Positions 10,242-23,785 of a stretch of DNA of 34,508 nt are shown here, piece by piece. Source of the DNA: Clostridia bacterium. Lineage in GTDB: Bacteria > Bacillota > Clostridia > Oscillospirales > CAG-272. The notes below the pieces were generated by a model. The model made no database searches and was not told the origin of the DNA. It was given only the letters and a program-made list of their open reading frames with translations. Numbering within the stretch: the stretch's first letter is position 1; every line of letters starts with the position of its first letter. Made by a program: the position numbers and the translations under genes. Location of the stretch: assembly GCA_017468385.1 (NCBI GenBank), contig JAFUIQ010000034.1, forward strand, positions 1 through 34,508, read 5' to 3'.

Positions 10242-10754
10242 CTATTCTTCTGTATATAACTCATCATAGTACCAGCGCATTGGATTTTCGTAGATGTATT
10301 TTATGTGTTCTTCATAGTCTTCGCGGTTTCGAATGATATGGTCGTTGAAATGTCTTTGCCAAATGTTTTCGCCGTATTCTTTATTGCAAAAGCGTTTGAA
10401 TGTTGATACAAACCGCGACACATACGAATGTTGTTTCACCGTAGGGGGCGACGTCCTCGACGCCCCGTCATTATGAACAAGCAACATAATGTGAATGTGG
10501 TTTGGCATAATTACGTATCGGTCAACCGATATATTATTATAGAAATTATTCAATTGGTTTATATATTTATCTGCGATTTTGCCATATGGCAATAATTCTG
10601 TGTCTTTCGGGGCGTCGGGGACGTCGCCCCCTACAATGCGGGATAAGATTCTTCGGCGATTTTCCGTACATATTGTGAGAAAGTATGCCCCGGATGAATT
10701 ATAATCAAAATTTTTCAATCTCGTCGGTTTTCTCTTTGGCAATTCGTTATCCAT
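10242..10754 (-). CDS. REP-associated tyrosine transposase (RAYT), copy 2
   Basis: This encodes 170 residues from the ATG at 10754 (MDNELPKRK, matching copy 1; an ATG two codons earlier is possible). The family blocks are DYNSSGAYFLTICT, the HUH motif in MPNHIHIML, IWQRHFNDHII and REDYEEHIKYIYENP. It is paralogous to the RAYT at 5325-5846, ending with almost the same residues (NPMRWYYDELY). Like that gene it carries two inverted REP-like palindromes in frame at the same two positions, but with a different stem sequence. It ends with TAG and has A/T-rich composition. Transcription would come from a promoter embedded in the pyk terminator. Confidence 0.9.
   Translation of the reverse strand: MDNELPKRKPTRLKNFDYNSSGAYFLTICTENRRRILSRIVGGDVPDAPKDTELLPYGKIADKYINQLNNFYNNISVDRYVIMPNHIHIMLLVHNDGASRTSPPTVKQHSYVSRFVSTFKRFCNKEYGENIWQRHFNDHIIRNREDYEEHIKYIYENPMRWYYDELYTEE
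10441..10467 (+). repeat. REP-like palindrome B inside RAYT copy 2
   Basis: The palindrome starts GTAGGGGGCG and ends CGCCCCG. It is inverted relative to 10608-10634 with one mismatch in 27. It shares the GTAGGGG/CGCCC frame with the copy 1 palindromes but has a different centre. In frame it encodes DGASRTSPP. Confidence 0.85.
10608..10634 (-). repeat. REP-like palindrome A inside RAYT copy 2
   Basis: This is the inverted partner of 10441-10467. It encodes VGGDVPDAP, at the position where copy 1 has VGAIHESP. Confidence 0.85.
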
Positions 10755-10770
10755 TTCCATCACCCACCCT

Positions 10771-10810
10771 ATTATAGCAAAAAAACGGCCGGGGGACAAT
10801 CCCTCGGCCG
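10771..10810 (-). promoter_or_regulatory. pyk terminator with an embedded promoter for RAYT copy 2
   Basis: On the minus strand, CGGCCG (10810-10805) pairs with CGGCCG (10791-10786), with GGG/CCC above it, followed by TTTTTTT: the pyk terminator. The loop supplies -35 TTGTCC (10799-10794). A 17-bp spacer, made of the descending arm and the T-tract, leads to -10 TATAAT (10776-10771). Confidence 0.75.
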
Positions 10811-10821
10811 ATTTCATACTA

Positions 10822-12305: not shown

Positions 12306-13577
12306 TTATGCTCTTTTATTGGGAGTCTTGATAATCTCGGGGCGGGGGCTGATATCACCGGCGGCCTGCAATGCCATACGGGTCAGGGCGGGGCCAACCA
12401 ATTCATAGACCAACACGGCAAACAAAACGATATTGCGGATCAAGATACCGCTTTCCGCCCCCAACTGGAGCGCGGTGATGGACATACCCAGCGCCACACC
12501 GGCCTGGGGAAGCAGAGTGATACCCAGATATTTAACGATGGAAGGGGAGCAGTGCACCATCTGCGCGCTGAAGCGGGCACCCGCATATTTTCCCACGGAA
12601 CGGGATGCAATATACGCCACGCCGATAGCCACGATGACGATATCGGTGAATACACTGAGTTCCAATTCCGCACCGCTCATTACGAAGAAGAGCACGAACA
12701 GGGGCGCAGTCCACTTATCCGTTTTCTCCATCAGATCCTCGGAGAAATCACAGATATTGCAGAATATGGTGCCCAGCATCATGCAGACCAGCAGGGTGGA
12801 AAAGCTTACATGCACCGGTCCGATATGGAAGTCCAGCATGGACAAACCGACGGTCAGCATAACGAAAGTAACCGCCATACTGAGACGCTTACTGCCCGAA
12901 TGGAAGTGCTTCTCCGCAAAGGTGAAGATGTAGCCCATAATCGCACCGAGGCCGAGAGAAACCACGATTTCCACGAGGGGATTGACCAGAATGGAGATCA
13001 GATCCATATTGCCGTCCTGCAAAGCACGGGCAATACCAAAGGAAACGGCGAAAATGATCAGGCCGACGGCGTCATCCAGCGCCACGATGGGGAGCAGGAT
13101 ATCGGTCAGCTCGCCCTTGGCTTTATACTGACGAACGACCATCAGGGTAGCGGCGGGAGCCGTTGCGGCGGCAATGGCACCCAGAGTGATGGCAACGGGC
13201 AGGGGCAGTTTGTCCGGCGCGATGAAATGGAAGGCGATCAGTACCGCATCCACGCAGATTGTGGTAACCACAGCCTGCACGATGCCGATGACGGTAGCCT
13301 GCACGCCGTTTTTGCGGAGCTGGGACAGACGGAATTCATTACCGATGGAGAAGGCGATAAAGCCCAGGGCCACCTCGGAGATGATGCTCAGAGAGGCAAT
13401 CTGCTCCATGGAATTGAAGCCCAGGCCGGGGATATTGAGCGCACCCAGCAGATAGGGTCCCACCAAAATACCGGCTACCAGATAACCGGTAACAGCGGGA
13501 AGCTTCAGGGGCTTTACAAAGCGGGAAAGAATAAGTCCCGCTGCCAGAGCAATAGACAGGCATAGCAAGGTAGTCAT
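12306..13577 (-). CDS. Cation:proton antiporter (CPA2 / KefB-type)
   Basis: This encodes 423 residues with about 12 membrane segments and no long cytoplasmic tail. LKLPAVTGYLVAGILVGPY near the N-terminus, GFIAFSIGNEF, and ALDDAVGL (about residue 165, the paired aspartates used for ion binding) match the Na+/H+ exchanger domain of the CPA2 family. It probably exchanges Na+ or K+ for H+ across the membrane. There is no TrkA-N domain. The ATG at 13577 was chosen because the hydrophobic MTTLLCLSIALA start and the GGAAAGG site fit it better than the upstream ATG, which lies in the leader. It leads the operon with pyk. Confidence 0.9.
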   Translation of the reverse strand: MTTLLCLSIALAAGLILSRFVKPLKLPAVTGYLVAGILVGPYLLGALNIPGLGFNSMEQIASLSIISEVALGFIAFSIGNEFRLSQLRKNGVQATVIGIVQAVVTTICVDAVLIAFHFIAPDKLPLPVAITLGAIAAATAPAATLMVVRQYKAKGELTDILLPIVALDDAVGLIIFAVSFGIARALQDGNMDLISILVNPLVEIVVSLGLGAIMGYIFTFAEKHFHSGSKRLSMAVTFVMLTVGLSMLDFHIGPVHVSFSTLLVCMMLGTIFCNICDFSEDLMEKTDKWTAPLFVLFFVMSGAELELSVFTDIVIVAIGVAYIASRSVGKYAGARFSAQMVHCSPSIVKYLGITLLPQAGVALGMSITALQLGAESGILIRNIVLFAVLVYELVGPALTRMALQAAGDISPRPEIIKTPNKRA

Positions 13578-13621
13578 GATGTAAAGTGACCTTTCCGAAC
13601 CTAAGTAATAATGATAACACA

Positions 13622-13637
13622 CGTATGTGATCATACG
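13622..13637. promoter_or_regulatory. Possible operator in the antiporter leader
   Basis: CGTATG (13622-13627) and CATACG (13632-13637) form a 6-bp inverted repeat with a 4-base spacer, just downstream of the -10 of the antiporter promoter. This position suits a repressor or an early mRNA hairpin. No matching regulator is identified. Confidence 0.45.
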
Positions 13638-13643
13638 CTGTAT

Positions 13644-13672
13644 ATTATACCCCTGATTTCATGAATTGTCAA
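13644..13672 (-). promoter_or_regulatory. Antiporter-pyk promoter
   Basis: A perfect minus-strand sigma-A promoter: -35 TTGACA (13672-13667), a 17-bp spacer and -10 TATAAT (13649-13644). Confidence 0.9.
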
Positions 13673-13702
13673 ACGGAATCGGAAAATATCCCCTTTTGCT
13701 GC

Positions 13703-13735
13703 CGCCGAAGTTTTGGCGATATTTTTTTGTTTCTT
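13703..13735 (+). terminator. Terminator-like hairpin in front of the phage-operon promoter
   Basis: CGCCGAA, a 2-base turn and TTTTGGCG form a 7-bp stem (13703-13718, including one G-T pair), followed by ATATTTTTTTGTTT. It points toward the particle operon and could insulate it from stray upstream transcription. Confidence 0.5.
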
Positions 13736-13794
13736 GTGCGAGATGCACAACGGGATGTGACAGATTATGTGCAAATCCCACTACTCGGCTTATA

Positions 13795-13824
13795 TTGACA
13801 GAACAGGTGTTCTTGTTGTATAAT
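13795..13824 (+). promoter_or_regulatory. SOS-controlled promoter of the phage-like operon
   Basis: -35 TTGACA (13795-13800), an 18-bp spacer and -10 TATAAT (13819-13824), both hexamers perfect. The first 12 bases of the spacer (13801-13812) read GAACAGGTGTTC, a perfect GAAC-N4-GTTC site whose inner AGGT fits the R-N-R-Y centre of the Bacillus subtilis LexA (DinR) box. LexA bound here would block RNA polymerase directly. The strong promoter would open on DNA damage. Confidence 0.85.
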
Positions 13825-13865
13825 ATTGCCACGGCGAACAAATGTACCAATTGAGGAGGACTGCT

Positions 13866-14219
13866 TTGAAACAAGAACAAACACAGCGGTTTCTGGATCG
13901 GTTTTCCCAATGCTATCTGCGGGAAGATGCCGCGGCCAAAGCGGGCATCACCGATGCAGAAGCCATCGCCTATCTGAAACGGCGGAGCACCCGCGCCGCT
14001 CTGGATGAACGGATTTCCGCCCGGCTGGCGGGAAATATGCTGAAACGTATCCTGCGGGAATACGAGGCCATTGCATTCGGCAAATCGGAGGATATCCGGC
14101 CGGGGGAACGGATCCGCGCGCTGGAACAACTCCGCCATCTGACATCCTCCGACACGCCGGGAGATACCGGCACACAGGGAGACGCTCCCTCCCTGATCAT
14201 ACGGTGTGAATATGTCTGA
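13866..14219 (+). CDS. Phage terminase small subunit-like protein
   Basis: This encodes 117 residues from a TTG at 13866, which has GAGGAGG six bases upstream; an ATG at 13842 lacks a ribosome site. The first 60 residues have the helix-turn-helix pattern of small terminases (FLDRFSQCYLREDAAAKAGI, then a second helix with AYLKRRS). The second half has a long helix for oligomer formation. Small terminases pick the DNA for packaging. The gene is first in the operon, right after the SOS promoter, and overlaps the large terminase start. It is short for the family (usually 140-180). Whether it still recognises a specific pac site or packages random DNA is not visible. Confidence 0.75.
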   Translation: MKQEQTQRFLDRFSQCYLREDAAAKAGITDAEAIAYLKRRSTRAALDERISARLAGNMLKRILREYEAIAFGKSEDIRPGERIRALEQLRHLTSSDTPGDTGTQGDAPSLIIRCEYV

Positions 14220-15489
14220 GTCCGTCGTATATTTCAACCGCACCTTCGCGGAGGCCAATCGGACCCGGTGCCGCTATCGCCTGCTGTGCGGCGGCGCGGG
14301 CAGCGGCAAAAGCCTGAACACCGCACAGGATTTCATTTTGAAATTATCCGATGTGCAGTATCGGGGGGCCAATCTTCTGGTGGTGCGCAAGACGGAATCC
14401 GCCTGCAGACACAGCGTGTTTGAGGAACTCCTCGGCGCGATTCTGCGCATATTCGGGAAGGATTTCGCCCGCTACTGGCAGATTCGTCAGGAACCCATGG
14501 AGATGACCTCGCTCGTGACGGGTGGGAGGATCATTTTCCGCGGGATGAAGGACGAGGCCCAGCGGGAGAGGGTGAAAAGCGTAGCGTTTGAACAGGGCAA
14601 GCTGACATGGATCTGGTGTGAGGAAGCAACGGAATTGCACATGGCGGATCTGGACATTCTGGATGACCGTCTGCGAGGCGATCTCACCATGGTGAATCCC
14701 CTGCTCTATTATCAGATCACGCTGACGTTCAATCCCATCAGCGCGGGACACTGGCTGAAAAAGCGATTCTGGGACGCGCCGCCCTCGCCCGACGTGTACC
14801 TGCATCACAGCACCTTCCGGGACAACGCCTTCATCGGCGAGGAATACGCCGCCCGCATGGAGCGGCGCGCCAAGGAAGATCCGGTGGGATACGCCGTGTA
14901 CGCTCTGGGGGAATGGGGCAACACGGGCACCGGGCTGATTCTCACCCGATGGCGGGTGGCGGATCTGGATCCGGATCCCGAGCACTACGACGGGTGCTGG
15001 ATGGCACAGGATTTCGGCTTCAACCACGCGGATTGCCTTCTGCTCATCGGCATCCGGGACGGGGTGATCTGTGTACTCAAGGAATTGTATGTGCGGGAAA
15101 AGGACACGGCCGAGATCATCCGTCTGGCGGAGGATGCGGGATTTCCGAAAGGGCGCACCATGTACTGCGACAGCGCGGAGCCGGATCGGATCCGCATGTG
15201 GCAGAAAGCGGGATGGCGGGCGGTGGCCGTCATCAAAGAACCGGGATCTGTGGCTTCCCAAATCGACTATCTGAAGCAGCACGAGATCCTGGTGGACGCG
15301 CGGTGCGAGAATGTGATCGATGAGCTCTCCAACTGGCGCTGGATGAAAAACGATTCCTCCGGGGAGATCCTGGACGAGCCCTGCCCCATCCATGACGATG
15401 CCATGGCGGCGCTTCGCTACGCCACCGAACCGCTCCGCCGCCCCGAGAGACGCCTCCGCACTCTGCCGAAGAACGCCCTCGGCATCTGA
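14212..15489 (+). CDS. Phage terminase large subunit (PBSX family)
   Basis: This encodes 425 residues from the ATG at 14212 (a GTG two codons earlier is possible). The ATPase half has a clean Walker A GGAGSGKS (residues 27-34), a Walker B-like IWCEEA (134-139) and the TFNPIS coupling motif. The nuclease half (about 240-425) has MAQDFGFNHAD with its metal-binding aspartates, YCDSAEPDRI, and the late HDDAMAALRYA block. All key residues look intact, so the motor should work. It pumps DNA into the capsid through the portal. The start overlaps the small terminase gene, which suggests coupled translation. Confidence 0.95.
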   Translation: MSESVVYFNRTFAEANRTRCRYRLLCGGAGSGKSLNTAQDFILKLSDVQYRGANLLVVRKTESACRHSVFEELLGAILRIFGKDFARYWQIRQEPMEMTSLVTGGRIIFRGMKDEAQRERVKSVAFEQGKLTWIWCEEATELHMADLDILDDRLRGDLTMVNPLLYYQITLTFNPISAGHWLKKRFWDAPPSPDVYLHHSTFRDNAFIGEEYAARMERRAKEDPVGYAVYALGEWGNTGTGLILTRWRVADLDPDPEHYDGCWMAQDFGFNHADCLLLIGIRDGVICVLKELYVREKDTAEIIRLAEDAGFPKGRTMYCDSAEPDRIRMWQKAGWRAVAVIKEPGSVASQIDYLKQHEILVDARCENVIDELSNWRWMKNDSSGEILDEPCPIHDDAMAALRYATEPLRRPERRLRTLPKNALGI

Positions 15490-15530
15490 TCCCCCGCTAA
15501 CTCCGTCTTCGCCCGAGAGGCGTTCTTTTT
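15471..15530 (+). terminator. Possible attenuator between packaging and structural genes
   Basis: GAACGCC-C-TCGG at the end of the terminase gene can pair with CCGA-GA-GGCGTTC at about 15512-15525, followed by TTTTT. The loop is long (about 30 bases), so it is a weak terminator at best, but it lies exactly at the boundary between the terminase and portal genes. Confidence 0.35.
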
Positions 15531-15575
15531 GGGCCAAGAAACGAACAAATGTTTTTATTACGAAAGGAACTATCT

Positions 15576-16826
15576 ATGCAAGACACCAAAGACATTCTTT
15601 TGCATCTGGAAGCATTTCTGCGCACGGATGCGCCCCGTCTTACCCGATTGAACGCCTACTATCTGGGAAAGCACGATATTCTCCGCGCACCGCGGGATCC
15701 CCTGAAGCCGGACAACCGTCTGGTCAACAATTTCTGCCGCAACATCACCGACTGCACGGTGGGCTATTTCATGGGCCGCGGCATCCGCTACGCGTCGGAT
15801 GACGATCGCACCATGGAGATGATCACCCGCGTCAGCACGGAAAACGACGAGCGTTTCGTCAATAACGCATTGGCAAAAGATCTTTCCGTTTGCGGACGCG
15901 CCGCTGAGCTTCTCTGGTATGACGATCTGCTTCATCCCCGCTTTACCCCCCTGTCCCCCGATTCCGTGATCCCCGTATACGACTCCGGTGTGGATCCCCG
16001 TCTGCGCTATGCCATCCGATTCTTCACAAAAGAAACCGGCAAAACCGCAGTGGAAGTGTACGATGAGACGGACATGACCGTCTACGACTACGAAAACGGC
16101 ACGCTCACCAAGAAGGAAACCATTCCCCACTTCTTCGGGGATGTGCCCGTGATCTTCTACGCCAACAACCGGGACAAGCAGGGAGATTTTGAGCCGGTAC
16201 TGTCTCTGATTGACGCATACAACCGCCTGCAGAGCGACAGCGTCAACGATTTTGAATTGTTCGCCGACAGTTATCTGGCCATCTCCGGCATGGGTGCGGC
16301 GGATGAGGAGGATCTCGCCCGCATCCGTCGGGATCGGGTCATTCTGCTGGACGACGGCGGCGAGGCCAAATGGCTGACGAAGAGCGTCAACGATGCGTAC
16401 ATCGAGAACATGAAGTCCCGCATTGCGAAGGACATCTACCGATTCTCCGGCACGGTGGACATGGCGGAGGAAACCCTGGCGGGCAATGCTCTGTCCGGGG
16501 TGGCGATTCGCTATCGATTGCTGAATTTCGAGAACCGCGTATCCGTGACGGAGCAGTATTTCCGCCGATCCCTGCACGCAAGATGGCAGATGATCTGCCG
16601 TCTTTTGAGTCTGGCAGGCGCCCCCTACGATGCCGCCGCCATCCGCACCATTTTCACCCGCAATCTGCCCGGCTTGCCAGAGGAAGCGGCGGACATGGCA
16701 CAGAAGCTGACGGGCATTCTCTCCCGCCGCTCCGTTATTGAGCATCTTCCCATGGTGGAGGACGCGGAGGCGGAGATGGAGCGAATCCGTCTGGAGGACG
16801 CTGTAGGTGAGGAGGTGATGGCATGA
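15576..16826 (+). CDS. Phage portal protein (SPP1 gp6 family)
   Basis: This encodes 416 residues, with GAAAGGAAC before the ATG at 15576. The N-terminal signature NRLVNNFCRNI and GYFMGRGIRY (about residues 47-72) is typical of SPP1-like portals, the dodecameric ring through which DNA enters. The central FEPVLSLIDAYNRLQSD (stem and crown region) and the clip region around the SGVAIRYRLLNFE segment (about 305-320) are also recognisable. The length is within the family range. The stop overlaps the scaffold start as ATGA. Confidence 0.92.
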   Translation: MQDTKDILLHLEAFLRTDAPRLTRLNAYYLGKHDILRAPRDPLKPDNRLVNNFCRNITDCTVGYFMGRGIRYASDDDRTMEMITRVSTENDERFVNNALAKDLSVCGRAAELLWYDDLLHPRFTPLSPDSVIPVYDSGVDPRLRYAIRFFTKETGKTAVEVYDETDMTVYDYENGTLTKKETIPHFFGDVPVIFYANNRDKQGDFEPVLSLIDAYNRLQSDSVNDFELFADSYLAISGMGAADEEDLARIRRDRVILLDDGGEAKWLTKSVNDAYIENMKSRIAKDIYRFSGTVDMAEETLAGNALSGVAIRYRLLNFENRVSVTEQYFRRSLHARWQMICRLLSLAGAPYDAAAIRTIFTRNLPGLPEEAADMAQKLTGILSRRSVIEHLPMVEDAEAEMERIRLEDAVGEEVMA

Positions 16827-17293
16827 CGGAGGAAATCATGGAGCAACCGGCGGAGGAAATCCGCGAGGAGATGGTCCCGGAGACCACGGAGGAAGTCGAA
16901 GACGCGGCCATCACCGCCGCTTATGAGGCGGGACGAGCCGCCGCCGCGCTGGAATCCGATGCCCGCATTGCGGCGTTGGAGGAACAGTTGAAGCAGGCCC
17001 ACCGTGCCGCCGCCCGTCGGGAGACGGAGATACTATGCGGCACCTATCTGCGGGAGCGGGGTCTCAGCGAGGAGATGGCCTCCTTCCTCCTCGCCCCCGG
17101 TGAGACGGAGGTAAAGGAGGAGGTCCTGCTCCACCGTGTGGAGGCCATCGCCGGGGCGGTGGAAGCCGCCGCCATGCGGGAGCTGCAGTCCCGCGCGCTG
17201 TCGATCCGCCCCGAGGGGGGCAAGAGCACCCCTTTGACGGGGGCGGTGATCCGCGACATGCCCATCGCCCGTCTGGCGGAGATCATGGGATGA
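16823..17293 (+). CDS. Capsid scaffolding-like protein
   Basis: This encodes 156 residues. It is very acidic at the N-terminus, with a helical, probably coiled-coil middle (about 30-75, AAYEAGRAAAALESD and LEEQLKQAHRAA), and a C-terminal tail. This is what phage scaffolding proteins between portal and capsid genes look like. They fill the procapsid and leave on maturation. There is no protease motif. The role is inferred from composition and position, and the sequence itself is not family-specific. GGAGG precedes the ATG, and the start overlaps the portal stop. Confidence 0.75.
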   Translation: MTEEIMEQPAEEIREEMVPETTEEVEDAAITAAYEAGRAAAALESDARIAALEEQLKQAHRAAARRETEILCGTYLRERGLSEEMASFLLAPGETEVKEEVLLHRVEAIAGAVEAAAMRELQSRALSIRPEGGKSTPLTGAVIRDMPIARLAEIMG

Positions 17294-17303
17294 GAGACGA
17301 TGT

Positions 17304-17327
17304 GGGGTGTTTTTGAAAAAACGCCCC
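17304..17327 (+). other. Hairpin in front of the major capsid gene
   Basis: GGGGTGTTTTT, a short turn and AAAAAACGCCCC form a stem of about 11 bp (one G/T mismatch-type pair). CCCCC and A-runs follow, not T-runs, so it is unlikely to terminate. Phage capsid mRNAs often have such hairpins as processing or stability elements. Confidence 0.5.
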
Positions 17328-17378
17328 ATACCCCCAAAAAATTTATCATTATATTGAACTACTGAAAGGAATTTATCA

Positions 17379-18410
17379 ATGAATACCATTTATGAAAATA
17401 CCGTTCTGGAAGCCAAGCTGACTGAGCTTCTCAACTCCAAGCTGGAGGTACGCTCCCTGATGACCGTGGATGACTCCCTCACCGAGAGTGCCGGTCTGAC
17501 CAAGGTGATCAACCGCTACACCTACAACGGCACTGTGGAAACGCTGGATGGCGGCGAGGCCAACTCTACCGCCGGCACCCTTCGCTTCACACCCGAGACG
17601 TACACCGTGAAGCGTTATCAGCAGACCTTCCGCTACAACGATGTGGAGGCTATGAAGGATCCTGCCCTGATCGACATGGCGCTGTCCGGCGCGGCCGATG
17701 TGATGGCCAACCAGCTGAGAAGCGAATACTTTGATCAGCTGAAGCAGGTACGCCACCGTCATCCCATCGCCTCCGACACCGTTTCCTACACCGACATTGT
17801 GGATGCGCTGGGCAATCTGGGCCGCGAGGTGGAGGATGGCCTGTTCATCCTCATGGGCACCGACGGACGCACCGCCATCCGCCGCGACAGCGATTTCATC
17901 ACCGCTCACCAGGGCGACATCCTGTACAGCGGTCAGTTCGGCACGCTGTGCGGCATCCCCGTACTGTTCTCCAAGCTGGTGCCTGCCGGCAAGGTGATCA
18001 TCACCGAAAAGGCGGCGGTCAAGTTCTTCGTGAAGCGCGAGGCCGGTCTGGAGCAGAGCCGCGACATCGAAAAGAAGGAAAACACCATCGTATACGAGCG
18101 TCACGGCGTGATCGCTCTGGTGGATGACACCTCCTCCGTGATCCTGGGCAAGGCGGCACCGGCACTGACCGTATCCGCATCCCTGAAGGATGGCATGGCC
18201 ACTCTCACCGTATCCGGCAAGAGCAAGGAAGGAAACAAGGTCTTCTACATGGCCGATGCGGATGCACCCCTTCTGGGCGATGATGTTTCCCTCTGGCATG
18301 AGTGGGACGGCACCTCTGCTATCGAGATCGGCGACGCCAAGTGCGTGGCCGTGGCCGAGGTGGATGCAGGCGGCATCACCGTCAAGAGCGGCTGTGCTTC
18401 TCTGAACTAA
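17379..18410 (+). CDS. Phage major capsid protein
   Basis: This encodes 343 residues, with AAAGGAA before the ATG. The N-terminal arm (1-35), the E-loop-like segment with NRYTYNGTVETLDGG, FTPETYTVKRYQQTFRYND, and the P- and A-domain parts (about 90-250, including DGLFILMGTDGRTAIR and GTLCGIPVLFSKLVPAGKVII) fit HK97-fold capsid proteins of Clostridia phages. Residues about 262-343 look like an added Ig-like surface domain (TVSASLKDGMATLTVSGKS). Codon use differs from its neighbours: arginine is almost only CGC/CGT and leucine CTG, the pattern of strongly expressed host genes. That fits a protein made in hundreds of copies. Confidence 0.9.
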   Translation: MNTIYENTVLEAKLTELLNSKLEVRSLMTVDDSLTESAGLTKVINRYTYNGTVETLDGGEANSTAGTLRFTPETYTVKRYQQTFRYNDVEAMKDPALIDMALSGAADVMANQLRSEYFDQLKQVRHRHPIASDTVSYTDIVDALGNLGREVEDGLFILMGTDGRTAIRRDSDFITAHQGDILYSGQFGTLCGIPVLFSKLVPAGKVIITEKAAVKFFVKREAGLEQSRDIEKKENTIVYERHGVIALVDDTSSVILGKAAPALTVSASLKDGMATLTVSGKSKEGNKVFYMADADAPLLGDDVSLWHEWDGTSAIEIGDAKCVAVAEVDAGGITVKSGCASLN

Positions 18411-18440
18411 TCCCGAACTACTGCACCCAAGGAGGCTAAC

Positions 18441-18758
18441 ATGATCATACCTCAGGAAATGCGTCTGCGTCTGGGCATGGACCCGGCAGACGACTCACAG
18501 GATCCCCTGATTTCCCTGCTTCTGGAGGGAGCAGAATCCTATGCCCGCACCTACTGCCGACTGCGGGAGGAGGAAGACGTTCCGAACGATCTGATCGTGC
18601 GGATGACACAGGAAGACTACGGCCGGTTGGAGGGGGCGGGCATCGCCTCCTCCACCCTGTCGGGTGCTGCGGAATACTACCGCTCCTCCTACAGCGATGA
18701 TGTGATGGGCGCCCTGCGCGCCCTCCGTCATCCCGGTACGGTGAGGGGGCGATTCTGA
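18441..18758 (+). CDS. Head-tail connector protein (gp6/gp15-like adaptor)
   Basis: This encodes 105 residues. The N-terminal half (RLRLGMDPADDSQDPLIS, SYARTYCRL) is the helical pattern of adaptor proteins that dock under the portal ring. The tail is arginine-rich. AAGGAGGC precedes the ATG. The stop overlaps the next gene (TGATG). The function is assigned from family resemblance plus its place right after the capsid gene. Confidence 0.75.
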   Translation: MIIPQEMRLRLGMDPADDSQDPLISLLLEGAESYARTYCRLREEEDVPNDLIVRMTQEDYGRLEGAGIASSTLSGAAEYYRSSYSDDVMGALRALRHPGTVRGRF

Positions 18759-19072
18759 TGCGCAAGCGAATGCAGGATATCTGCACCTTATACGATGTGC
18801 CGCAGATCACCCCCGACGGGGCCCACTCCGCCCGTTATCTGGGAGAGATCCGGGCCCTTCTGGTGGCCCGATCCTCCGAGGAAAACAACGCGGATGGACT
18901 CTCCCACGCCGCCCAGACTGTCAGCGCACTGATTCCCCTGCGATACACGCCTGCGGGCGGATTTGTACGGGGCATGTCCTTGGCGCAAAACGGCGTAACC
19001 TACCGGATGCTGACTCCCGTGAAGCTGTCCCGCCTGTGGGCCATCAAGTGCGTGCGCATCCACATCGGATAA
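18758..19072 (+). CDS. Head closure protein-like
   Basis: This encodes 104 residues rich in beta strands (TPDGAHSARYLGEIRALLV, FVRGMSLAQNGVTYRML). It sits where gp16-type head-closure (stopper) proteins lie in siphovirus gene order. No diagnostic motif is visible, so the assignment depends on gene order. It overlaps the preceding gene and is followed after 11 bases by the next. Confidence 0.6.
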   Translation: MRKRMQDICTLYDVPQITPDGAHSARYLGEIRALLVARSSEENNADGLSHAAQTVSALIPLRYTPAGGFVRGMSLAQNGVTYRMLTPVKLSRLWAIKCVRIHIG

Positions 19073-19083
19073 AGGAGATTCTT

Positions 19084-19440
19084 ATGCTGAAAACCGTACT
19101 TTCGGCGGCGACTGCCGCCATGACCGTACCGCTGTTCCCCGCTCCCACCTATCACGCGCCGCCCTGTGCGGTGTATCGGTATTACCCCGCCGGATCGGAC
19201 GGTGCGAAACGCACGGCCACATTCACCGTGCGCGTATTCGCATCTACCGTTACCGAAGCCGCGGAGGAGTTGAGCCGACTGCGCCGTGCGCTGGTCAGCG
19301 ACGGCGATCTGGGGCTTATCGGGGATGCGGACAATCTTCTCCTGGTACGGGAGACATCGGAGGGCGCCACCAGCGGATACGTCCGCGGAGCCCAGGTGTA
19401 TTTCATCCAGGCAGGATTCACCATATCAGGCCGCGCGTAA
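19084..19440 (+). CDS. Tail completion / minor capsid-like protein
   Basis: This encodes 118 residues from the ATG at 19084, with AAAGGAG before it. It has alternating short strands and a helix (VTEAAEELSRLRRAL) and ends in RGAQVYFIQAGFTISGRA, which fits gp17-type tail terminators (the joining ring between head and tail). It is assigned by pattern and position and is not diagnostic alone. Confidence 0.6.
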   Translation: MLKTVLSAATAAMTVPLFPAPTYHAPPCAVYRYYPAGSDGAKRTATFTVRVFASTVTEAAEELSRLRRALVSDGDLGLIGDADNLLLVRETSEGATSGYVRGAQVYFIQAGFTISGRA

Positions 19441-19481
19441 GCGGCAATCGGGTACGCCCGAAGAAAGGAAAAACGCAAACT

Positions 19482-19997
19482 GTGCTGCAAGAAGAAAAAA
19501 TCTTCGCCCTTGGCCCCGGCCGGCTGTACATCGCACCGGCGGGGATCCCCGAGAACAAGATACGCTCTCTTTTGTATTACGCGGGGCCGACCAAGGGCGG
19601 AGTGAAGTTGAAATATGAAACAAAAATCCACGAGATCACCGACTATCGAGGCAAGGTGATCCGCGCCATCCCCTACGGGGAGCGGCTTCGTGCCGAGGGG
19701 GTACTGGCGCGTCTGAATCCCCATGTACTGGCGGATGCCATCGGCGCGTCCTACGACAAGCGGATTCTGTCCTTTGGCGCGCGGCGCAAGACGGGGCGCA
19801 TCACCCGCATCCGTCTGCTGTTGGTATGCGCCATCCCGCCGGAGGCCGGCGGCGGAGAATTTGTTTTCTCCATGATCTGCACCGCCGCCTCCGGCACCGC
19901 TTTCACCTTATCTGCCGACCGGGATTCCTCCTACACCTTCTCCCTTTTGGGCGAATCGGACGGGGCCGGCATGCAGGGAAAGGCGGTGATCGGATGA
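19482..19997 (+). CDS. Tail tube protein-like
   Basis: This encodes 171 residues from a GTG (GAAGAAAGG upstream). FALGPGRLYIAPAGIPE followed by YYAGPTKGGVKLKYE and a beta-rich body is the typical start of tail-tube proteins in Bacillota siphoviruses. In ordinary phages this gene is followed by tail chaperones and a large tape-measure gene. Here it is followed at once (ATGA overlap) by the distal tail gene. Confidence 0.7.
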   Translation: MLQEEKIFALGPGRLYIAPAGIPENKIRSLLYYAGPTKGGVKLKYETKIHEITDYRGKVIRAIPYGERLRAEGVLARLNPHVLADAIGASYDKRILSFGARRKTGRITRIRLLLVCAIPPEAGGGEFVFSMICTAASGTAFTLSADRDSSYTFSLLGESDGAGMQGKAVIG

Positions 19998-20803
19998 AGG
20001 GCGGCATCACACTGTATTCCGAAGGCGGCAAGATCACCTTCGGCCGCGAGGGATACATCCTGCACGAAATCGAGAACGCCCCGCCGAAGGTACTGCCTGC
20101 CGGTTTGGGGACACGGGCGATCACCCTCCGCGGCTACATTCTGCCCACGGGGGAGGATGACACCGCCCGTCTGGCATCGCTGGACGCGTTGTCCCGCCGC
20201 GTCATGCGGCTGGTAATGGCGGAGGGGGGATTCTACATGGAGGAATGGGGGCGCACTCTGCATCTGTTCTGCACCGAGGCGCCCCATTTCTCCCGGGAAG
20301 CTCCCTTTGCGGAGGGAGATGCGGCCCTATTTACCGTGCGGGCGATCAGCGAGGAGAACATCCCCTATTACACCGAGGCGCCCCGTCAGGCATCCGCCCG
20401 GGGCATGGAGGGAAAGTTGGTTTTCCCTCTGGCCATCACGGAGCAGACCGTATTTGCCACGCTGTCCCAAAGCGGTGTGATTACGGTGGTCAATCCGGGG
20501 GATGTGCCCTGCGGGTTCACGGCCGCGATTACTGCGGATCGGGACACCGTGGATTCTATCACTCTGACATTGGGTGAGGAGCAGATCACGGTGTCGTATC
20601 CGCTGGCGGCGGGGGAGGTCATGACCATCTGCACGGTGCCGGGCCAGAAGGACGTGTTGTGCGGTGGTACTTCTCTTTTGTCCTGCGTGGACTGGCGAAG
20701 CACCTTTTTCCCACTGGCTCCCGGCGAAAACCGTCTGGCGTGGCAGGCAGAGGGCGGGGGTTGTCCCCGTCTGATCCTCACCCTCACGCCGCTGTATCTA
20801 TAA
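19994..20803 (+). CDS. Distal tail protein-like (Dit family)
   Basis: This encodes 269 residues from the ATG at 19994, overlapping the tail tube stop. The N-terminal half is the belt domain (GYILHEIENAPPKV, TRAITLRGYILPTGEDD, with the conserved R-x-I-x-L-x-G beta hairpin). The C-terminal half is a jelly-roll-like galectin domain with GDVPCGFTAAI. Dit forms the hub at the tail tip. The order Dit then Gp37-like then fibre is normal. Confidence 0.8.
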   Translation: MKGGITLYSEGGKITFGREGYILHEIENAPPKVLPAGLGTRAITLRGYILPTGEDDTARLASLDALSRRVMRLVMAEGGFYMEEWGRTLHLFCTEAPHFSREAPFAEGDAALFTVRAISEENIPYYTEAPRQASARGMEGKLVFPLAITEQTVFATLSQSGVITVVNPGDVPCGFTAAITADRDTVDSITLTLGEEQITVSYPLAAGEVMTICTVPGQKDVLCGGTSLLSCVDWRSTFFPLAPGENRLAWQAEGGGCPRLILTLTPLYL

Positions 20804-20819
20804 TGTAGAAAGGACAACT

Positions 20820-21827
20820 ATGTTGGATATGCAAATTTTTACACCAACCCTGTCCCTGCGTGCGGTATGCGACTGCGCCCTATCCGTTCACGCCACGGAA
20901 GAATACGATGCCCCCGGCTCCTGCACCGTTCTGGTGCCGCTCAGGCTGGCGGGGGCATTTGTCCCGGAGGGCATGATCTCCATCCCCGGCATCGGCGGGG
21001 GATACCAGATCGAATCCATCCGGGAGGATGGGGTCAGCGAGACGGCCACGATCACCGGCCGGGGGATTCTGCACCGTTTTACCCAGCGGATTCTGGCGGA
21101 TCCCTTCCCGTACGCCGGCACGGCGGAGGATGGCATCATCGATCTGGCCGCGAACTGCGGCGGGGATGCCCTGCCGGGCAATCTTTCCTGCATCAGCTAC
21201 GGCATCCCCGACACGGTGGATGTGCGGGCCGAGGCGGGATCTCTTCTGTCCGTGATGCGCACTCTGGCACGCCCGGCCGGACTGGGGCTGCATCTGCGGC
21301 TGGATCCGGCGGCCCGGGAATTTCTGTTCAGCGTGCGCACCCGGACCGCGGGCGGCACGTTTCTCTCCCGCTCCCTGGGCAATCTCCGCTCCGCCACCCA
21401 ATGGCAGGATCGGAAGAACTATGTGAACCGGGTGACGGTACGGGGGAAGGACGGCACATCCGTGACGATGGACGCCGCGGACTGCATCCGGGACGGATTC
21501 GATGACGCCGCCGCGCCGGTGCGGGAGTACCTATTGAGTGTACCCGATCTGTCCCAGGGGGATTTCGCCTCGGAGGCGGCCTATCTGGATGCCCTGCGGG
21601 GACGGGGGCTAAGTTTTCTGCGATCCCGCCGTCCAATTTTCTCCGCTTCGGCGGAAACGGACGAGGATACCGCCCGACGGGTGAGGCTGGGGGAGATCCG
21701 CCCGCTGGCCGATCCCCTTTTGGGGCGGTACGCCGGGGCGATCTGCACGCAAAAATCTCTTACAGCGGATAAAAACGGCATCCGGCACGCCATCTCGCTG
21801 TCCCTTATGCCGGATGAATCTGTTTAA
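20820..21827 (+). CDS. Siphovirus Gp37-like tail protein (tail hub)
   Basis: This encodes 335 residues, with AGAAAGGAC before the ATG at 20820. The pattern YDAPGSCTVLVPL, GGGYQIESIREDG, TITGRGILHRFTQRI, then a domain with LRSATQWQDRKNYVNRV, fits ReqiPepy6 Gp37-like proteins, which are short relatives of the Tal/gp27 baseplate hub. There is no peptidase domain. It would sit below the Dit ring. Confidence 0.8.
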   Translation: MLDMQIFTPTLSLRAVCDCALSVHATEEYDAPGSCTVLVPLRLAGAFVPEGMISIPGIGGGYQIESIREDGVSETATITGRGILHRFTQRILADPFPYAGTAEDGIIDLAANCGGDALPGNLSCISYGIPDTVDVRAEAGSLLSVMRTLARPAGLGLHLRLDPAAREFLFSVRTRTAGGTFLSRSLGNLRSATQWQDRKNYVNRVTVRGKDGTSVTMDAADCIRDGFDDAAAPVREYLLSVPDLSQGDFASEAAYLDALRGRGLSFLRSRRPIFSASAETDEDTARRVRLGEIRPLADPLLGRYAGAICTQKSLTADKNGIRHAISLSLMPDESV

Positions 21828-21842
21828 TAAAGGAGTATATTT

Positions 21843-23114
21843 ATGGAAAAATCTTTTCCCTTTAACGCCGCTCTGGTAGACGGTCAGCCAGATCGCGTAT
21901 ATTCCGCGGAGGATTTTGCCGCGGAGCGGGCGGCCTATGTTTCCAATGGCGTATGCGCCGGGGATGCGCTGCTTGTTACCCCGGGGGCCGGCGGCGGTAT
22001 GACGGTGGATGTGGCACCCGGTCTTTCGGTGATCGACGGCTACACCTACCGCAACACGGACCCCCTGACGCTGTCCGTTTCCGCGGCGGATGCGGTATAT
22101 CCCCGCCTGGATCTGGTGGTACTTCGCCTGGATCTGCACGCCCGGGAGATGCGCTGCGCCATCCTTTGCGGCACGCCGGCGGTGTCTCCCGTGCCTCCGG
22201 CGCTGACCGTGACGGAATCCGTTCACGAGATCCCGCTGGCACAGATCGCGGTGGCCGCCGGTGAGACGGTGATCGAAGCATCCCATCTGACCGACATGCG
22301 CCAGCGCGCCAGCTACATTTTGAACACGATGGATGTGGATGCGCTGCTGGATGAATACAAAAAGGCCATCACCGATCATTTTGACACCGAGGATGCGGCC
22401 GCCATTGCGGAAGCCGCTTCCGTTGTGCGCACCGATCGGGGCACCTACGAAGTACTGTGCGGGGACGGCATTTACCGCGACGCCTCCACCGTAACCAGCG
22501 GCCGTGTGGAGCTGTGCCGCTTTACGGAATCCGGCACCTTCCGCCCCGCGGATTATCCCACCGTGGACGGTCGGTACGACATCGTTCTGCAGGGCGGCGG
22601 CGGATCCGGCGCGGCGGCCACCCAGACCGGTAATGTTACCGTATACGGCGGGTCCGCCGGCGGATACATGTCCCTCTCCGGGGTGGCACTGATCCCCGAC
22701 AAGGACTACCCCGTCACCGTAGGCAAGGGCGGTGCGGCCCTGCCCAAGGGAACAGGCAACGGTGCCACCTCTGTCCAATCCGCCGGCAACGACGGTGGGG
22801 ACACCTCCTTCTGGAATTACACCGTTCCCGGCGGCAAGGGCGGCACGATGAACACCGAGCCCCAGCCCGTCAACACCGCCGGATTCACCTCCGAAGTAGG
22901 TACGGTGGGCGAAAACGGCAAGGGCGGCGATTCCCACTTTGCCCGCGGCGGTGCCAACGGCTGTGCTTCCTATGGCCTTACCCGGGAGGCAGGTGACGGA
23001 TCGCTCGGCTCCGGCGGCGGTGCTGTGGTGAAATACGATCTGTACGTGGGCAAGACCGGTGCCGGCGGCGACGGACTTGTGATCCTGTACGGCATTCCGG
23101 CGTGCGCGGAATAA
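21843..23114 (+). CDS. Tail fibre / receptor-binding protein, glycine-rich
   Basis: This encodes 423 residues; AAAGGAG precedes the ATG. The N-terminus (FPFNAALVDGQPDRVYSAEDFAA and a VAPGLSVIDGYTYRNTD block, about 1-160) is the particle-attachment part common to Bacillota tail fibres. A helical linker (about 165-200) leads to a glycine-rich C-terminal domain (about 235-423) with many GG and GGAG-type turns, like phage adhesins that recognise surface sugars or proteins. Its stop overlaps the next gene. Confidence 0.8.
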   Translation: MEKSFPFNAALVDGQPDRVYSAEDFAAERAAYVSNGVCAGDALLVTPGAGGGMTVDVAPGLSVIDGYTYRNTDPLTLSVSAADAVYPRLDLVVLRLDLHAREMRCAILCGTPAVSPVPPALTVTESVHEIPLAQIAVAAGETVIEASHLTDMRQRASYILNTMDVDALLDEYKKAITDHFDTEDAAAIAEAASVVRTDRGTYEVLCGDGIYRDASTVTSGRVELCRFTESGTFRPADYPTVDGRYDIVLQGGGGSGAAATQTGNVTVYGGSAGGYMSLSGVALIPDKDYPVTVGKGGAALPKGTGNGATSVQSAGNDGGDTSFWNYTVPGGKGGTMNTEPQPVNTAGFTSEVGTVGENGKGGDSHFARGGANGCASYGLTREAGDGSLGSGGGAVVKYDLYVGKTGAGGDGLVILYGIPACAE

Positions 23115-23656
23115 TGCTGCATCGGGGCATCTGCCCCGATTTTGCCGCTCTGGCGGCGGATGGGATCCGCTTTGCGATTCTGGCCGCCACGGCGGGACGG
23201 CAGGAGATCGCCCCGGATTTGTTTGAGAATCTGTCCTCCGCCCGGCGGGCGGGGATCGACACGGCAGTCTATCACGATCTGCAGGCGGGGGATCTGGCCG
23301 GGGCGGCGGGGGAAGCGCGGCATTTTCTGCGTGTGCTTTCCGGGATGGAATCCCCACCCCGGTGGGCCATATGCCGGGTGGAATCCCCTGCTCTGCCCTA
23401 TGATCGGGACAGGCTGACCCGGGCGGTGCGATTGTTTCTCACCATGATCCGCCAGGGGGGATATGCTCCCATGCTGTACACGACGGAGGATTTTTTGCGG
23501 CATCGGCTTTCCCCCATGGGGCCATACGAATTGTGTCTGGCCCGGTGGAGTGTGCCCGAGGCCCGGGCACTGACGCGCAATCCCCGCATCTGGGAATACG
23601 GGGAGGGGGCTGTGGGGGATCTGTCCCGGGCAGTACTTCTTAAAGGATATTTCTGA
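23102..23656 (+). CDS. GH25-like (lysozyme-fold) protein with lost catalytic residues
   Basis: This encodes 184 residues from the GTG at 23102 (an ATG at 23114 is the alternative). It aligns along its whole length with GH25 muramidases: RGIMLHRG for the usual GIDVSxxQG, GIRFAILAAT for GIxFxIIRxG, ICRVESPAL for the DxE strand, GGYAPMLYTTEDF, and RIWEYGEG for the IWQYS end. The first Asp is Met, the Asp of DxE is Arg (the Glu remains), and the last Asp (VDxN) is Leu. So the fold seems kept while activity is probably gone. It may now bind the cell wall as a targeting part of the tail. It is last in the operon. Confidence 0.75.
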   Translation: MRGIMLHRGICPDFAALAADGIRFAILAATAGRQEIAPDLFENLSSARRAGIDTAVYHDLQAGDLAGAAGEARHFLRVLSGMESPPRWAICRVESPALPYDRDRLTRAVRLFLTMIRQGGYAPMLYTTEDFLRHRLSPMGPYELCLARWSVPEARALTRNPRIWEYGEGAVGDLSRAVLLKGYF

Positions 23657-23686
23657 ATCCCTGCCGGTCGGCAGGGATTTTCTTTA
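23656..23686 (+). terminator. Terminator closing the phage-like operon
   Basis: AATCCCTGCC (23656-23665), the loop GGTC and GGCAGGGATT (23670-23679) form a perfect 10-bp stem followed by TTCTTT. It starts at the last stop codon and marks the end of the cluster. Confidence 0.9.
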
Positions 23687-23693
23687 TTCTGCG

Positions 23694-23734
23694 GGAACAT
23701 GTCACGGGATTTTTCGTCCAAAGGACAAAATCCC
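23694..23734 (+). promoter_or_regulatory. ECF-type promoter and inverted repeat before the sigma gene
   Basis: GGAAC (23694-23698), 16 bp and CGTC (23715-23718) match the general ECF promoter plan, consistent with autoregulation. An inverted repeat overlaps it: GGGATTTT..GTCC (23706-23719) pairs with GGACAAAATCCC (23723-23734), with a 2-base bulge. It may be an operator or mRNA hairpin. Confidence 0.6.
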
Positions 23735-23785
23735 TTGTAATATTCTCCCTTATACGCCGTTATATCCAGTGAAAGGATGAGTGCC

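Follow-up and report, generated by a model that had tools for sequence, protein, structure and literature searches.

A closed operon of phage head and tail-tip genes without a tape measure in a Clostridia genome: a candidate gene transfer agent

RESULTS

A closed operon of phage structural genes

A cluster of genes for a phage-type head and tail tip occupies positions 13795-23686 of contig C32, a 34,508-base stretch of DNA (the window) from the 2.2-Mb, 62-contig draft genome of a Clostridia bacterium. Examination of the open reading frames (ORFs), together with family searches, placed 13 genes in a closed operon, one more than the 12 counted in an earlier annotation made from the letters alone (the sequence-only reading); every frame is open, as that reading had stated. 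It had also described ends closed by the operon's own promoter and terminator between ordinary host genes. Both elements were found (13795-13824 and 23655-23680), and family searches confirmed a Na+/H+ antiporter gene on the left and a gene for an extracytoplasmic function (ECF) sigma factor on the right. The GC content of the operon is 61%, versus 51 and 53% in the flanks. The features are as follows; L and G numbers denote loci and genomes compared in this work.

13795..13824, + strand: sigma-70 promoter TTGACA-18-TATAAT, 12/12 consensus, with a LexA box in the spacer
13800-13813: LexA box AGAACAGGTGTTCT, inside the promoter spacer
13866..14219, + strand: TerS, small terminase (weak phrog_4102 match, E 0.023; position; homologues in L019 and L020)
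14206..15489, + strand: TerL, large terminase of the PBSX family (Terminase_3, E 6.6e-37; TIGR01547, E 4.6e-40, above cut-off; tree)
15576..16826, + strand: portal, SPP1 gp6-like (SPP1_portal, E 4.1e-99; first ORF start 15549)
16823..17293, + strand: scaffold, DUF4355-like (weak match below the Pfam cut-off; relatives)
17379..18410, + strand: major capsid protein (Phage_capsid_4; phrog_544, E 4e-22)
18441..18758, + strand: head-tail connector 1 (Phage_connect_1)
18758..19072, + strand: head-tail connector 2 (position; homologues in L019, L020 and L032)
19084..19440, + strand: connector 3, probable tail terminator (homologues in L039 and L042 directly precede the phage tube)
19482..19997, + strand: tail tube homologue (phrog_2175, E 8e-5; alignment with phage tubes)
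19994..20803, + strand: Dit, distal tail protein (SPP1_Dit, E 1e-9)
20820..21827, + strand: Gp37-like baseplate hub (phrog_538, E 7e-17; Sipho_Gp37 just under cut-off)
21843..23114, + strand: tail fibre or tip protein (phrog_1220; Gly_rich_2)
23114..23656, + strand: GH25-like protein with a broken D-x-E pair (GH25, E 1.3e-15)
23655..23680, + strand: intrinsic terminator, starting at the last stop codon

TerS probably starts at TTG 13866, which by eye is preceded by GGAGGA, with ATG 13842 as a possible alternative. The portal start was placed at ATG 15576; G043, from the same genus, has a TAA just upstream of the corresponding point. Family searches gave no useful match for connectors 2 and 3, which were named from their position and from homologues in relatives. 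The tube is homologous to the tubes of phages with the same capsid family, and these phage homologues match phrog_2175 and, in L035 and L051, also the major tail families phrog_885/117. Sequence searches of solved structures with the tube and hub profiles returned nothing useful. The best matches in named phages reached 57.6% identity for TerL and 29.8% for Dit (found in four records), and capsid identity was at most 26.9% among the matches listed. An extra C-terminal domain of ~80 amino acids (aa) is present in the capsid protein (window residues about 262-343); it occurs in 6/7 cluster loci of alignment A1 and is absent from L025 and from phage L017.

The readable clusters lack a tape measure, and some lack a recognisable tube

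The stop codon of the tube gene (ending at 19997) and the ATG of Dit (19994) share a 4-base ATGA overlap, as the sequence-only reading had noted, leaving no base for the tape measure that a complete siphovirus prophage has between tube and Dit. In all ten readable cluster loci (the window, L020, L021, L022, L023/L024, L025, L032, L033, L034 and L098), which represent five or more genera, the longest same-strand frame from capsid to Dit measured 115-242 aa. A tape measure beside the cluster in relatives, which the earlier reading had named as evidence against itself, was thus not present in this stretch in any of them. The contig of G043 (L019) stops after connector 3, and this locus therefore lies outside the count. 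By contrast, all 12 readable IMG/VR phages with this capsid family carry an ORF of 656-1001 aa after the connectors. Ten of these ORFs were scanned and all gave strong tape-measure phrog matches, the other two being identical copies (L037/L038 and L051/L054 are identical, and L042/L057 are 93% identical). A tube-profile match preceded the long ORF in 9/12 phage loci and a Dit-profile match followed it in 2/12 (L017 and L045); elsewhere the right border of the comparison was inferred. L128, from the TerL scan, has a tube, two small ORFs and a 628-aa tape measure. The phages (L017, L035, L042 and others) share with the window the order TerL, portal, scaffold, capsid, connectors, tube, but they also encode one more protein behind the portal, have small ORFs following the tube, and carry the tape measure itself.

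A tape measure encoded elsewhere was sought with two families. The window's own genome (G000), which the sequence-only reading had proposed to search, contained no PF10145 match at E ≤ 1 and no phrog_1272 match, and phrog_1272 was likewise without a match in G043, G712, G216, G016 and G042.

Six clusters (the window, L020, L021, L032, L033 and L034) have a tube directly before Dit, and in the other four (L022, L023/L024, L025 and L098) the tube profile matched nothing at E ≤ 1e-4. In three of these (L098, L023 and L025), the gene preceding Dit was considered as a hidden tube and rejected: it fits the connector-3 profile (hhalign probability 78%) and not the tube profile (0.1%). The tube and Dit profiles compared with each other gave 1.2%. 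Before Dit there are also ORFs of 211 and 63 aa in L022, which was outside the hhalign test, and of 42 aa in L025, none with a phrog match. One cluster, L032, has a 220-aa ORF between connector 3 and the tube (L032:3086-3748) that matched no cluster protein or phrog.

Distribution and history of the cluster

Capsid searches gave matches in 13/295 family genomes at E ≤ 0.001 and, with a profile, in 9/395 sampled family genomes at E ≤ 1e-60 (8 distinct). At the order level 5/394 genomes matched at E ≤ 1e-30, and the window's own was the single cluster-type genome among them. A portal search within the genus matched 3/5 genomes, the two without a match being 83% and 64% complete. Searching IMG/VR with the capsid returned 28 contigs, comprising 3 cluster-type loci, the 12 readable phages, 9 loci ending too early and 4 with broken frames. 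Together, these searches yielded 11 distinct cluster loci: the window, those of G043, G100, G029, G016, G216, G042 and G712, and L032, L033 and L034. The G719 locus is identical to that of G216 over 28,001 bases (100%; L023/L024, L096/L097) and was counted once, although the two genomes are filed in different genera; one of the bins probably holds a stray contig. Judged by ORF sizes and first residues, capsid matches in G616, G116 (two loci) and G105 belong to phage-like loci with ORFs of 842-965 aa and were set aside. By the same evidence, L205 and L206 (G301 and G343, one genus of another family) have an apparent contractile layout with a distant capsid relative, and could be another domesticated particle.

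In a TerL tree, the ten cluster sequences fell on one side of a branch with support 100/100, against 23 other TerLs hand-picked from 81 loci. A sub-group (99/96) unites the window, L020, L033, L019, L021 and L034, with a tube wherever the region is visible. The antiporter gene divergently adjoins TerS in both the window and G100 (74% identity), bearing out on the left side the shared host neighbour that the sequence-only reading had proposed to look for, and a HAD hydrolase gene lies just after the last gene in both G216/G719 and G712 (61% identity over 236 residues). Inheritance in place is thus shown for two species pairs. Elsewhere the neighbours are different, with RNase Y in G042 and a tyrosine phosphatase in G043, and the best antiporter match of G043 is on another contig, so that movement or rearrangement probably also happened. 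The other 22 window genes tested had no match near the cluster sites of relatives.

No integration, replication or repressor gene was recognised among the 13 operon genes and seven neighbours scanned. The earlier statement that such genes and a holin are lacking therefore holds for what could be recognised, while its statement that lysis genes are lacking does not, since a GH25-like gene is kept, albeit with acids that look broken. The flanks at 13561-13841 and 23641-23776 had no direct repeat of ≥8 bases in common and one 8-base inverted match. Occurrence in one strain between att sites, another outcome that would have spoken for a prophage, is not what was seen, as several genomes carry the cluster. 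The sole tRNA found in the window is at 4-95. A small gene to the left (10242-10817) has a transposase-like (Y1_Tnp) Pfam match below cut-off.

LexA boxes and a second, putative operator at cluster promoters

Twenty simple shuffles of the 34.5-kb window gave a mean of 0.4 exact GAACN4GTTC boxes, so chance alone would not be expected to place one inside a 30-bp promoter; boxes with one mismatch were at chance level in the window (6 vs 6.6 expected). Exact LexA-type boxes lie upstream of TerS in the window, L020 (two), L019 (two, 150-280 bases upstream) and L034, with none before TerS in L021; the L032 and L033 contigs end short of this region. Inside the clusters, exact LexA-like boxes were seen at gene gaps or starts (L033:1304, L034:3470 and L019:1130), as were one-mismatch boxes (window 15542, L032:1947), a class that is at chance level in the window. 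The lexA genes of the window's own genome, G043, G100 and G186 are preceded by the one-mismatch box CAAACN4GTTCG, and no LexA-type box was found upstream of the lexA-like genes of G042 and G029. In the window's own assembly lexA matches twice (C30:75116 and C62:1315) with equal score and upstream box, perhaps reflecting a duplicated contig end or a strain mixture.

Exact LexA boxes are absent from the tubeless clusters. These have TTGTCCGTTTTGTCCG in common, present at the cluster in 4/4 genomes (G216, G712, G042 and G016), and a putative operator of this type lies at the cluster promoters of L023, L025, L098 and L189. With one mismatch allowed, the motif occurs once or twice in each of the four genomes, and a reversed control pattern gave no match. 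A second site precedes gyrB in G712 (L187:8294) and G016 (L188:744), and in G712 the cluster and gyrB promoters are identical at 40/44 bases. The second G216 site, with one mismatch, falls within another ORF, and the motif is absent from the 500 bases before gyrB in G216, G042, G000, G100 and G043.

Selection on the cluster genes

Maximum likelihood (ML) estimates of omega (dN/dS) were 0.055-0.20 in 13/13 genes (3-5 sequences per gene), indicating the purifying selection that a domesticated particle had been expected to show; gyrB gave 0.036 across three species of the genus. The estimates for terS, scaffold, connector 3, Dit and hub are rough, with tree lengths of 14-36, and none is near 1; the portal estimate leaves out G043, with its TAA upstream of the probable start. 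ML values are given as well as Nei-Gojobori values because the latter are near saturation. By Nei-Gojobori, comparison of the window with L020, L019, L032 and L033 gave 0.13-0.27 for TerL, portal and capsid and 0.13 for the antiporter. Conservation is highest in terminase, portal and capsid, with 71-78% identity to L019, L020, L032 and L033 where present, and the hub (33-37%) is among the fastest diverging proteins. Identities within the genus are 70-78% for TerL and capsid and 77-81% for GyrB.

Lysis genes

The D-x-E pair, which we take to be the catalytic acids of GH25, is intact in L025 and L034, while the D is missing in the window and L033 and the E is missing in L020. In G216 and G712 the cluster ends with XhlA-like and holin-like genes, recognised by their mutual similarity (the XhlA Pfam match is weak and below cut-off). 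L034 ends with a phage r1t-type holin and its intact GH25, L025 ends with its intact GH25, and L033 has retained a holin-like gene. As in the window, a hairpin and T-run can be seen by eye soon after the GH25-like gene of L020, with no holin on the rest of that contig. Lysis genes beside the cluster in relatives had been listed as counting against domestication, and on this point the result went the other way from the sequence-only reading.

DISCUSSION

We consider it likely, at a probability of about 0.7, that the cluster encodes a domesticated, stub-tailed, DNA-packaging particle similar to a gene transfer agent (GTA) and controlled by DNA stress. This is a reading of the genes alone, and most of the refuting outcomes named in advance for a GTA-like or PBSX-like particle with a very short tail, as opposed to a decaying prophage, turned out in its favour. 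Like a GTA, the cluster consists of structural phage genes on a host chromosome without recognised integration or replication genes. It is under purifying selection, and the fixed place of a GTA was seen in the two species pairs and not in G043. DNA damage would remove LexA from the box inside the promoter, and the operon would then be transcribed as a single unit from promoter to terminator. Scaffold and capsid protein may form a procapsid on the SPP1-type portal, and the PBSX-type terminase, with no phage genome beside it, would package any DNA that it encounters into the shell, most likely that of the host. The connectors would close the head, and the tip of Dit, hub and fibre would dock on a very short tube or, in the four tubeless relatives, directly on the connectors, as a result of the removal of the tape measure and, in some lineages, of the tube as well. 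Rather more tentatively, we propose a family of GTA-type particles in which the siphovirus tail was removed stepwise, with loss of the tape measure in all and of the tube in some, and the operon was re-wired to whichever host stress operator was available, LexA or TTGTCCGTTTTGTCCG.

Several observations weigh against a domesticated particle. In G043, the best antiporter match (62%) lies on a different contig from the cluster; the cluster may have moved, the genome may be rearranged, or the match may be a paralogue. Distribution is patchy (9/395 family genomes at E ≤ 1e-60, in 6/71 genera), and all genomes compared are drafts. Weak, unexplained phrog_1272 matches occur in G100 (E 2.4e-10, four pieces, one 985-aa frame) and G029 (E 1.9e-7, a 1218-aa frame), and an unusual tape measure could escape a search with two families. 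All 13 omegas exceed that of gyrB. By Nei-Gojobori, tube, Dit, hub and fibre gave 0.34-0.71 and the GH25-like gene 0.5 and ~1.1 (the latter vs L033), and the tip proteins diverge fast (33-56% identity to L020, L032 and L033). Given this contrast, and TerL and capsid identities close to those of GyrB, the packaging half appears to be held nearly as the host's own genes are, with the tip evolving faster. Finally, release is unexplained, as the GH25 acids look broken and no holin was recognised in the window, a distant second lysis operon not having been searched for.

A fast-diverging tip would also suit a PBSX-like killer, in which capsid and stub tail are kept so that a tip with a fibre and GH25-like domain can kill or bind kin, packaged DNA being irrelevant. 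The PBSX-family TerL, the SOS box, a hub at 33-37% identity and the XhlA-like gene ending some relatives are in keeping with this. We nevertheless regard it as unlikely, since there is no sheath among the 13 genes and no recognisable tube in four relatives, leaving little to pierce an envelope, and since the proteins under the strongest conservation are terminase, portal and capsid, pointing to DNA packaging.

An ordinary prophage in decay, stripped of integration, replication and tape-measure genes, would account for the broken GH25 acids, the lack of a recognised holin in the window, the different place in G043 and the patchy distribution. It would have difficulty accounting for 13 open genes at omega 0.055-0.20, the same loss in 10/10 readable loci from at least five genera, a promoter, operator and terminator still in place, and a single TerL clade at 100/100, and it seems to us distinctly improbable. 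Less probable still is a capsid-forming satellite, or a split prophage, relying on a helper phage for tail-length control and lysis, although its own capsid and packaging set, incomplete tail and LexA box would fit. Capsid-forming phage-inducible chromosomal islands (cf-PICIs) carry an integrase and depend on a helper for their tail, whereas in the window the 13 genes and the seven neighbours scanned include nothing recognised as an integrase, repressor or replication gene (the gene at 10242-10817 being transposase-like below cut-off), and the operon has its own Dit, hub and fibre. A search of the window's own genome for a second portal relative gave nothing at E ≤ 1e-3, and neither PF10145 nor phrog_1272 matched there.

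Returning to the domesticated GTA-like particle, several known systems are similar in part. PBSX of Bacillus subtilis is an SOS-linked defective particle with a contractile tail, sheath, tape measure, repressor and lysis cassette; the window resembles it in its TerL family (TIGR01547, E 4.6e-40) and SOS link, but those other parts are unrecognised in the operon. RcGTA of Rhodobacter capsulatus is likewise a domesticated siphovirus-like head and tail tip on a host chromosome, but it retains a tape measure and its control is unrelated.

The closest known system appears to be FpGTA of Faecalibacterium prausnitzii (Borodovich et al. 2026, Nat Commun, PMC12946183), on the basis of description and not of sequence, our cluster being known from its genes. 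In the accessible portion of that report, FpGTA forms 40-nm particles with no identifiable tail that contain 8.4-8.9 kb of host DNA, and is termed podovirus-like. It is encoded by two operons, the second, with baseplate, fibre, holin and endolysin, lying ~125 kb away in one strain, and no replication or phage metabolism genes were identified (PMC12946183). Both systems belong to gut Clostridia and have a ~10-kb operon with TerS, TerL, portal, scaffold and capsid, both include a baseplate and fibre in their part lists, and neither has recognised replication genes (PMC12946183). The window differs in having head and tip in one operon, a siphovirus-type tip of Dit and Gp37-like hub, and a LexA box in its promoter, where the same portion of the report names none (PMC12946183). 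With a single operon, a siphovirus-type tip and a likeness by description alone, we do not call the cluster FpGTA. GTA-like packaging was also reported in Oscillospiraceae and Christensenellaceae, with no gene clusters named in that text (PMC12946183). Our literature search, which left subscription journals largely outside, found no published report of this gene cluster.

Few GTA systems are known, and this cluster would add another, compact family with clear phage relatives, against which the steps of domestication become readable: the tape measure has gone, some lineages are without a tube, and the host's stress control has taken over the operon. A further question is structural, namely whether a Dit-hub tip of siphovirus type can attach to a head that has no tube at all. 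The cluster also gives a prediction as to which Clostridia would shed small particles filled with DNA.

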